A stretch of DNA of 41,067 bases, taken from assembly GCA_020720045.1 (NCBI GenBank), contig DYPH01000043.1:1-41067 (forward strand), read 5' to 3'. Below, one piece after another: positions 10,179 through 40,828 of the stretch. Position numbers and translations under genes: made by a program. The notes beneath the pieces were generated by a model. The model saw only the letters and a list, made by a program, of their open reading frames with translations. It searched no databases and was not told where the DNA came from. The DNA is from Sorangium cellulosum. Its GTDB lineage: Bacteria > Myxococcota_A > Polyangia > Polyangiales > Polyangiaceae. The first letter of the stretch is position 1; every line of letters starts with the position of its first letter.

Positions 10179-10334
10179 AGGCGACGTCGCCGAGAAGCCC
10201 GAGGTGTTTCCTCGCAATTCGACCCGCCGCGCGAGAACGGGAACGTGACCTTCCGCAAAAAGGATCCTATCGGGCCCCTCGGGCGGTGGCACGATTAGAA
10301 TTCGGCCGTTTGCCCGGAAACGGAGTCCCGTCTG

Positions 10335-11783
10335 TTGAATGCGTCTCCCCTTCACCTGCATCAGTTTTCGCTCCGCTACCCGACGGCGACCGTCCTCGAT
10401 CGGCTCGACCTCGCGATGAAGCCGGGCGTCGTGCACGCCTTGCTGGGGCCGGAGGGCGCCGGAAAAAGCTCGCTTCTTCGCTATCTTGCAGGCCGGGCGT
10501 TTGGGGCAGCATCGTCGGGGAGCGCCCTTCTCGGCGACATCCCGGTCGGCCCGGGGAACCACGCGACGCTCTTCGATCCGCGGGCGGAAGCGGGGCCTAT
10601 CGCCGCGCGCCTCCTGTACCTTGTTCACGTCGCGACCCACCGACCGCGCCTCCTTGCCGTCGACGAACCGACCGCCGGCCTCGACGAGGCGGCCTCGCGG
10701 GCGATGATCGATGCACTTCGCGAGCTTTCCGAGCAGATCCCGGTACTTGTTGCCACGCGGAGCGCCGAGACTGCGAGCGCCTTTCGCGGGACGACCTCGA
10801 TCCTCGCGCGGGGGCGCGTCGTCAATCGCAGCCCACTCGCGCCGCCGGAGGGCGTGGCGGAAGACGGGCCGGTTTCGCCGGAACCGATCGGCCCCGACAC
10901 CCGCCCGACCCGCAAGGTGCGCCTTTCGGAAGTTGCCGAGGCCGAGGCGCTCCCCCGGACGGTCCGCCGCCCGGTCGCCTTTTCGCGACTTCCGACCGCG
11001 CGGTCTGCGCCACGCCCCTCGGCCACCGACGACGACCGTCCGACGCCGATCTGTGCGTTCCCGGCTTTTGCGCCGGGCGACGATTCCGTCGACGAGCTTG
11101 CCGTCACGCGGGAGGTCGATGCGGCCTATCCACCGGTGGCCGCCGAGGAGGCACAGGAGGCGCCCCGAACCGATCCACGCCCATCCCCGCAGGTATTTGC
11201 ACCGAAATTACGGCCGATCTGGGTGTACGAACACGCGATGGGGCCTGGCGTAGCCCGGTTTGGCGGCTGTCGGCGGCCGGGCCTCCTCGGCGACGTGGAC
11301 GCGGAGCTTCGCAGCCTCCGCGAGTGCGGCGTCGACGTGCTGATCTCCCTCGAGTCCGAGCATCACCTCTCGGGGAGTTCCGTCGCCGCCGCCGGAATTC
11401 TCCATCGGGAGGCCGGCTTCGCCGACATGCGCGCCCCGGCGGCCCACGACATGATCGACCTCTGCATGGAGCTCGATGCGCTCTTCGCCGCCGGAAAGTC
11501 GGTCTGCGTCCATTGCAAGGCCGGGCTCGGTCGCACCGGCACCGTGCTCGCCGGGTATCTCATTTGGCGCGGGCAAAAGGCGACGGCGGCGATTCAGGCG
11601 ATTCGCGCCAAGCAGAACCGATTTGTGAGCACCGACGCCCAAGAGCGCTTCTTGGCGGCCCTCGAGGTCGCGATGCAAGACGCGCCCGTCCGCGAAGGGG
11701 GAGACGGCGCGGAGTTCGATGCCACCGCGCCCGTCCGCGAAGCGGGAGACGGCGCGGAGTTCGATGCTACCGCGCTCCTCTAA
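10335..11783 (+). CDS. Fusion of ABC-ATPase-like domain and dual-specificity/tyrosine phosphatase, with C-terminal 15-residue repeats
   Basis: The 482-residue protein has three parts. Residues 5-165 form an ABC-type nucleotide-binding domain with Walker A GPEGAGKS (38-45) and Walker B LLAVDEPTAGLD (106-117). The stretch before Walker B (EAGPIAARLLYLVHVATH) lacks a recognisable LSGGQ signature, the Q-loop region is shortened, and the H-loop position reads VATRS, so transport coupling is doubtful. Residues 166-295 are a Pro/Arg/Ala-rich linker. Residues 296-445 are a dual-specificity phosphatase with VCVHCKAGLGRTGT; the catalytic HCx5R is His393-Cys394 to Arg400, and a candidate general-acid loop is near GFADMRAPA. 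Residues 451-480 are two copies of PVREAGDGAEFDATA encoded by the dispersed 45-bp repeat. The start is TTG 10335, with GGAG nine bases upstream. No permease neighbours it. A soluble ATP- and phosphate-signalling protein is inferred. Confidence 0.8.
   Translation: MNASPLHLHQFSLRYPTATVLDRLDLAMKPGVVHALLGPEGAGKSSLLRYLAGRAFGAASSGSALLGDIPVGPGNHATLFDPRAEAGPIAARLLYLVHVATHRPRLLAVDEPTAGLDEAASRAMIDALRELSEQIPVLVATRSAETASAFRGTTSILARGRVVNRSPLAPPEGVAEDGPVSPEPIGPDTRPTRKVRLSEVAEAEALPRTVRRPVAFSRLPTARSAPRPSATDDDRPTPICAFPAFAPGDDSVDELAVTREVDAAYPPVAAEEAQEAPRTDPRPSPQVFAPKLRPIWVYEHAMGPGVARFGGCRRPGLLGDVDAELRSLRECGVDVLISLESEHHLSGSSVAAAGILHREAGFADMRAPAAHDMIDLCMELDALFAAGKSVCVHCKAGLGRTGTVLAGYLIWRGQKATAAIQAIRAKQNRFVSTDAQERFLAALEVAMQDAPVREGGDGAEFDATAPVREAGDGAEFDATALL
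11679..11761 (+). repeat. Two in-frame copies of the 38/45-bp hairpin repeat
   Basis: Copies at 11679-11716 and 11724-11761 lie in the same orientation, 45 bp apart, inside the 3' end of the ABC-phosphatase gene. Both contain the core CCGTCCGCGAAG and GAGACGGCGCGGAGTT. They match the tandem array at 40460-40828 and encode the repeated PVRE(A/G)GDGAEFDAT. Confidence 0.9.
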
Positions 11784-39591: not shown

Positions 39592-40461
39592 ATGGCGATT
39601 CAGTGGTTTCCCGGGCACATGACGAAGGCGCGGCGTCTCATCGCCGAGACGCTCCCGACGCAAGACGTCATCATCGAAGTGGTCGACGCGCGCGCCCCGG
39701 CGGCGAGCAGCAACCCGCTCCTCCACGAGCTCCGCGGCCGCAAGCCGTGCGTGAAGGTCCTCGCCAAAGGGGACTTGGCCGATCCGGAGATCACCGATCG
39801 TTGGGTCGCCTACTTCGCCGGACTTCCACGAGATTTTGTCCCGACGCCGAACGGTCCTCAACCGCGCGGCATGCTTAAGCCGCTCGTGATTCGTTCCGAC
39901 CGCGCCTCGGACACGCGAAAGGCGGTCGTTGCAGCTTGCAAGGAACTCGCAACCCACCCGAGCGGCCCTGGAAAGACGGTCCGCGCGATGGTCGTCGGGA
40001 TTCCAAACGTCGGCAAATCGACGCTCATCAATACGCTCATGGAGCGCAAAGTCGCGAAGACGGGTGACGAACCGGCCGTCACGAAGTCGAAGCAGCAGGT
40101 CATCCTGAAGAACGGAATGACGCTCCTCGACAATCCCGGCATCATGTGGCCGAAAATCGAAGAACCTGAAGCCGGCTATCGCCTCGCGTTTGCCGGTGCC
40201 ATCCCCGATTCTGCCATCGATTACGAGGACATCGCGCTTTGGGGGGCCCAGTTCTTGCTCGACGCTTACCCGGAATTGATCGTCGAGCGCTACCACCTGA
40301 AAGAGCTCCCCGAAAGCGGCGACGAACTCCTCAACGAGATCGGAAAGCGTCGCGGCGGGCTCCGTGCAGGAGGGGTGATCGATCGCCACAAAGCCGCCGA
40401 TGCGTTGATTCACGATTTCCGCTCGGGGGCGATCGGCCGGATCTCCCTCGAAGCGGTCTAA
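39592..40461 (+). CDS. rbgA: Ribosome biogenesis GTPase RbgA/YlqF
   Basis: The 289-residue circularly permuted GTPase begins MAIQWFPGHMTKARR, the family signature. Motif order is permuted: DARAPAASSNP (about 33-42), the G4 region LAKGDLAD (57-64), G1 GIPNVGKST (136-144), a G2 Thr near AVTK (162-165) and G3 DNPG (180-183), then a C-terminal helical RNA-binding domain with LPESGDELLNEIGKRRGGLR. RbgA acts late in 50S subunit assembly. In the G4 motif the usual Asn of NKxD is Ala (AKGD), which could weaken guanine selection. The stop TAA (40459-40461) lies at the first bases of the downstream repeat array, so the array forms the 3' untranslated region. Confidence 0.93.
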   Translation: MAIQWFPGHMTKARRLIAETLPTQDVIIEVVDARAPAASSNPLLHELRGRKPCVKVLAKGDLADPEITDRWVAYFAGLPRDFVPTPNGPQPRGMLKPLVIRSDRASDTRKAVVAACKELATHPSGPGKTVRAMVVGIPNVGKSTLINTLMERKVAKTGDEPAVTKSKQQVILKNGMTLLDNPGIMWPKIEEPEAGYRLAFAGAIPDSAIDYEDIALWGAQFLLDAYPELIVERYHLKELPESGDELLNEIGKRRGGLRAGGVIDRHKAADALIHDFRSGAIGRISLEAV

Positions 40462-40828
40462 CGCGTCCGTCCGCGAAGCGGGAGACGGCGCGGAGTTCCC
40501 TGCAAACGCGTCCGTCCGCGAAGCGGGAGACGGCGCGGAGTTCTCCACAAACGCGTCCGTCCGCGAAGCGGGAGACGGCGCGGAGTTCTCCACAAACGCG
40601 TCCGTCCGCGAAGCGGGAGACGGCGCGGAGTTCTCCACAAACGCGTCCGTCCGCGAAGCGGGAGACGGCGCGGAGTTCTCCACAAACGCGTCCGTCCGCG
40701 AAGCGGGCAACGGCCCGGAGTTATTCACAAACGCGTCCGTCCGCGAAGCGGGCAACGGCCCGGAGTTATTCACAAACGCGTCCGTCCGCGAAGCGGGAGA
40801 CGGCCCGGAGTTATTCACAAACGCGGTC
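40460..40828 (+). repeat. Tandem array: eight 45-bp units plus a partial ninth
   Basis: Units start at 40460, 40505, 40550, 40595, 40640, 40685, 40730 and 40775, with a truncated unit at 40820. Each holds a 38-bp imperfect hairpin. The stem pairs AAC/GTT, GCG/CGC, CCGTC/GACGG and CGC/GCG around a GAA loop, with two GGA bulges on the 3' arm. Units 2-5 are identical, units 6-7 are identical with GGGCAACGGCCCGG, and unit 8 is a hybrid, which indicates growth by unequal crossing-over. The array is open in several frames because 45 is a multiple of three and lacks stops, but it is not a credible gene. Confidence 0.95.

Follow-up and report, generated by a model that had tools for sequence, protein, structure and literature searches.

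The analysed stretch of Sorangium cellulosum DNA (41,067 nucleotides, hereafter the window) carries an open reading frame whose product joins an ABC-type nucleotide-binding domain (NBD) to a C-terminal dual-specificity phosphatase (DSP) domain (Table 1). Pfam searches with this product returned ABC_tran (3.2e-07, residues 21-55) as well as the DSP families Tc-R-P (7.6e-20) and DSPc (8.6e-09), the matches to DSP families spanning residues 311-442. Structure prediction with AlphaFold2 (54 sequences) resulted in a model with two confident domains, i.e., the NBD (residues 2-175, pLDDT about 82-98) and the DSP (residues 288-455, above 85), which are separated by a disordered linker and followed by a tail that is disordered too.

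Table 1. Features of the NBD-DSP fusion gene; coordinates are those of the window.
Feature	Position	Strand	Evidence
NBD-DSP fusion ORF, orphan paralogue, 482 aa, TTG start	10335..11783	+	sequence, Pfam, tree, AlphaFold2
Shine-Dalgarno-like GGAG, 9 nt 5' of the TTG start	10322..10325	+	sequence
ABC nucleotide-binding domain core, residues 1-175, helical subdomain deleted	10335..10859	+	AlphaFold2, PDB matches, alignment
Walker A GPEGAGKSS, residues 38-46	10446..10472	+	alignment
Walker B LLAVDEP, residues 106-112	10650..10670	+	alignment
H-loop His position occupied by Arg, residue 142 (VATR)	10758..10760	+	alignment
Linker, predicted disordered, residues 176-287	10860..11195	+	AlphaFold2
Dual-specificity phosphatase domain, DUSP23/CDC14-like, residues 288-455	11196..11699	+	Pfam, AlphaFold2, PDB matches
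Phosphatase loop HCKAGLGRT, residues 393-401	11511..11537	+	sequence, alignment
C-terminal tail, two in-frame copies of a 45-bp dispersed repeat	11681..11775	+	repeat search

When the predicted domains were compared with PDB structures, the NBD matched CbiO and MalK (Z about 20 over about 170 residues), with the alignments gapped where the helical subdomain belongs, and the DSP matched human DUSP23 best (Z 22.3), followed by Tk-PTP and SsoPTP; PTEN and PTPMT1 were also among its fold matches. Alignment with relatives revealed intact Walker A and Walker B motifs, the absence of the LSGGQ signature, Arg at the position of the H-loop His, and a complete DSP with its phosphatase loop, general-acid Asp and conserved Gln. 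The intact Walker motifs, the missing signature and H-loop His and the complete phosphatase loop had been proposed in the original prediction, made from the sequence without database searches, and each was confirmed. As to the proposed absence of a nearby permease, none was recognised in the seven ORFs neighbouring the gene, where the sole recognised domain was hemerythrin; an unlinked permease is conceivable.

The tail had been regarded as a repeat-coded add-on to the protein. It is repeat-coded, but the element is a dispersed genomic repeat, which the paralogues of the window copy lack and which lies outside the family. The 45-bp unit consists of a 32-bp core (CCGTCCGCGAAGCGGGAGACGGCGCGGAGTTC) plus about 13 bp, and the first half of the latter segment varies between loci and is mostly uniform inside one array. 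The repeat gave 81 match rows in the own genome (G000), where it forms arrays of 2-8 copies and occurs in single copies too; within the window it was found in the tail and, additionally, at positions 40460-40825. It resembles a small element, mobile or amplifying, which often extends into ORFs, and the tail of the window gene is best seen as an insertion that is read through and contributes no functional domain.

Homologous single ORFs, about 95 in number, were identified in Myxococcota and Beta- and Gammaproteobacteriaand, more sparsely, in Acidobacteriota and Planctomycetota. The query search gave a match in 42 of the 379 Myxococcota genomes, and the fused protein was present in 24 of the 379 (23 of these were read as single ORFs, and G029 was judged by the span of the match). 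When GTDB genomes were scanned with alignment A1, 80 named, mostly proteobacterial loci were obtained, distributed among Myxococcota, Beta- and Gammaproteobacteria, some Alphaproteobacteria, Acidobacteriota and Planctomycetota; with few exceptions, the NBD and the DSP share one frame in them. The family reaches cultured Comamonas, Delftia, Microbulbifer and Marinobacter. For the 80 named loci, conservation of the catalytic Cys follows in part from the way they were found, namely with the HCxAG[LI]GRTG pattern; among 32 loci picked by homology alone the Cys was kept in 31. As the same fusion occurs in single ORFs of many genomes, it is neither a chance nor an assembly product, and the concern that homologues would be split into two genes is answered by the many independent single-ORF fusions. 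The window gene is thus almost certainly a member of a conserved NBD-DSP fusion family.

This family is widespread in bacteria and apparently undescribed. The original prediction knew of no described family with this architecture, and that part still stands for the open-access literature searched, in which we found no description of the architecture or of the operon; nevertheless, the protein is not isolated, being part of a broad, multi-phylum family. Novelty was judged against this literature and the Pfam, NCBIfam and PADLOC models. The published study of the myxobacterial phosphatome catalogued COG2453 PTPs, and ABC appears nowhere in its main text (PMC2887360). Two other assignments were rejected, namely an anti-phage system, for which PADLOC returned generic ATPase-domain matches only, and a polymorphic toxin (hinted at by the Pfam name Tc-R-P), for which no toxin architecture was seen. 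Some relatives have tandem NBDs or have lost Walker A. In three loci (L049, L054, and L061), two tandem NBDs, the second of them degenerate, are located ahead of the DSP, and the L061 protein has an additional long N-terminal region without a Pfam match.

The alignment enabled the traits of the family to be separated from those of the window copy. Among 104 relatives, the Walker A Lys was kept in 94, the Walker B Asp in 98 and the Walker B Glu in 99, the Q-loop Gln in 87, and the H-loop His in 93, and the general-acid Asp and the conserved Gln of the DSP were found in all 104. A canonical LSGGQ at the aligned position was found in none of the 106 family sequences, so the loss of the signature is a family trait. 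Its absence from the window copy is explained by a deletion of about 55 residues in the helical subdomain, which leaves Walker A and Walker B 66 residues apart, compared with about 108-129 in most relatives. Since the H-loop His is kept in the great majority of relatives, the window copy is degenerate rather than typical. A few other lineages (G183, G372, L120, and L127 among them) have a reduced stretch between the Walker motifs too, yet they keep the H-loop His, and the combination of the shortened stretch with the H-loop Arg is specific to the window copy. Moreover, the PstB-like RTGSC segment which follows the NBD was lost in it.

Besides the window copy, the own genome encodes two further members of the family, so there are three paralogues: the window copy, C169 (560 aa) and C202, the last of which is broken across the ends of contigs C304 and C202 and was joined via overlapping protein ends. 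The DSP tree places the window copy and C202 as sisters (100/90) inside a genus-only clade (100/100). The NBD of the window copy shows 40-43% identity to those of the paralogues, compared with 54-62% among the others, whereas for the DSP the corresponding values are 63-68% and 65-70%. These identities indicate that the window NBD has diverged faster than the NBDs of its paralogues and that its DSP has not, a pattern which might also mark a domain that is decaying before it is lost. The other genome of the genus holds an NBD paralogue (L145:883-1827) whose frame ends without a DSP, with the H-loop His changed to Glu and the Walker B Glu changed to Asp.

Comparison of the neighbourhoods revealed that in most loci a protein of about 133 residues is encoded beside the fusion gene. 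It shows 63-91% identity across the first eight sequences aligned and has no NCBIfam match above cut-off; eight A2-type proteins of this kind were scanned with Pfam and gave no match above cut-off, Robl_LC7 included. Its AlphaFold2 model (pLDDT 90) has a roadblock/LC7 fold, with a Foldseek match to 3kye (E 1e-7) and Z 15.8 to Myxococcus xanthus MglB (6hjm). Roadblock (MglB-like) proteins usually work with small GTPases. The gene of this roadblock partner is present in 75 of the 80 named loci, which were chosen without regard to it, and in 64 it lies within 200 nt of the fusion gene on the same strand. In Myxococcota, the partner was found in all 24 fusion genomes and in only 3 others (Fisher 5e-35, ignoring phylogeny). 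The pairing of the family with a protein of predicted roadblock/LC7 fold is therefore near-obligate, as judged from gene linkage. In the own genome the partner is encoded once, beside C169, and it has no match in the window. No permease was recognised among the conserved neighbours of the relatives.

Further genes accompany the fusion in part of the named loci, i.e., a small GTPase (30/80), a Pfam Robl_LC7 gene (28/80) and a match to a ferredoxin-globin protein (30/80), and an Arf-like GTPase gene lies near several Myxococcota loci. In L073 (5318-5965), L136 (8293-9643) and about 30 proteobacterial loci, an operon was observed which comprises a small GTPase (PF03029), the divergent roadblock protein, NBD-DSP, Robl_LC7 and a 2Fe-2S ferredoxin-globin fusion; the presence of the globin hints at a redox or gas input. 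The roadblock-fold family that Pfam and NCBIfam do not recognise (L039:4816-5217, A4 members) is sometimes present in two copies per locus (e.g., L079 and L085).

As a whole, these data lead us to a reading which we favour by a modest degree: the window gene would be an orphan, NBD-eroded paralogue of a family built of a PstB-type NBD and a DUSP23/CDC14-like phosphatase, with an NBD that binds nucleotide without cycling and an active phosphatase, the ordinary members of the family being linked to a roadblock/GTPase pair. That ordinary members work with such a pair is, taken separately, probable. Their NBD may bind ATP and would not energise transport, because neither a signature motif nor a linked permease was seen; it would rather serve as a nucleotide-dependent docking or regulatory module, through which a roadblock/small-GTPase switch would be coupled to the phosphatase and phospho-signals would be erased as the nucleotide or GTPase state dictates. 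Nevertheless, it is conceivable that ordinary members form an unusual dimer that hydrolyses ATP, or that they have an unlinked permease as a partner. The window copy, which no longer has the helical subdomain, the H-loop His or the roadblock partner gene, would retain a non-cycling ATP-binding sensor or scaffold together with an active phosphatase, now outside the roadblock circuit; membership of this copy in such a circuit is doubtful, since no roadblock or GTPase gene is linked to it. Its phosphatase is likely to be active, and its NBD is slightly more likely than not still to bind nucleotide. An ATP-binding sensor or scaffold controlling the phosphatase, as was originally proposed, remains our best functional guess for this protein.

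The main competing explanation, which we consider doubtful, is that the window copy is a phosphatase only, and its NBD is a decaying relic without a role. The helical subdomain, the H-loop His and the RTGSC segment have been lost, the NBD has diverged at a faster rate than the DSP, and the partner gene is absent, all of which agrees with decay, as does the L145 paralogue, in which H-loop and Walker B residues were lost as well. On the other hand, a relic need not keep Walker A and Walker B exactly, nor need its core be predicted to fold with high confidence, and other lineages with a shortened helical subdomain still keep the H-loop His, which indicates that the shortening is tolerated in otherwise conserved proteins.

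It is also conceivable, but in our opinion unlikely, that the DSP acts on a non-protein substrate (a nucleotide, an inositol phosphate or a phospholipid), with the NBD sensing energy or phosphate status and no GTPase circuit involved. Lipid and inositol phosphatases exist among DSPs of such fold, PTEN and PTPMT1 are among the fold matches of the window DSP, two relatives gave weak Pfam PTPlike_phytase matches, and a connection to phosphate is suggested by the putative descent of the NBD from PstB; the best fold matches are, however, the protein phosphatases DUSP23, Tk-PTP and SsoPTP, and the nearly obligate roadblock linkage of the ordinary members likewise speaks against this reading. That the window protein is a PstB-like ABC transporter ATPase subunit with an attached regulatory phosphatase is highly improbable, despite its closeness to PstB and its fold matches to importer NBDs, since the family has no LSGGQ, no permease was recognised in the tested neighbouring ORFs or among the conserved neighbours of relatives, and the permease-contacting helical subdomain of the window copy is gone.

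Returning to the eroded paralogue of a roadblock-linked family, the module as a whole may be viewed as a bacterial system of a small GTPase, a divergent MglB-like roadblock protein and a signature-less, PstB-derived NBD-DSP protein. The phosphatase would be gated by the ATP and GTP states together, and the window paralogue would be escaping from this system; we hold the prospects of this extended proposal to be evenly balanced. If it is true, one conserved module spanning at least four phyla joins the switches of an ABC ATPase, a roadblock/small GTPase pair and a protein phosphatase, the family shows how signalling came to employ an ATPase domain taken from a transporter, with natural intermediates of its erosion at hand, and bacterial MglB-like proteins outside motility gain a testable output.

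Three kinds of known system come closest to the family. The NBD looks PstB-derived: the best NCBIfam match of full-length family NBDs was PstB TIGR00972 (6.9e-34 for L073 and 1.8e-21 for the paralogue C169), and PstB has Walker A and Walker B in common with the family, as well as the Q-loop and H-loop in the majority of relatives. However, all TIGR00972 scores are far under the cut-off (117 or less compared with 343), and the family differs from PstB in having no LSGGQ, in the fused DSP and in that no PstA/PstC permease was seen. The MglA/MglB switches and the conservons (CvnA-D) are similar in that the partner has the MglB fold and a small GTPase accompanies it in the 30 loci mentioned above; in contrast, MglB systems have no NBD-DSP protein, and the partner of this family is missed by Pfam Robl_LC7. 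No gene of this kind is mentioned in the passages considered of a survey of prokaryotic small GTPases (PMC4316618). Finally, the DSP looks DUSP23-like, as it has the fold, the HCxxGxGRT loop, the acid Asp and the distal Gln in common with DUSP23/VHZ, Tk-PTP, SsoPTP and CDC14 (Pfam DSPc, Tc-R-P, and PTP-SAK), but, unlike in these phosphatases, it sits behind an ABC NBD and is genetically linked to a roadblock protein.
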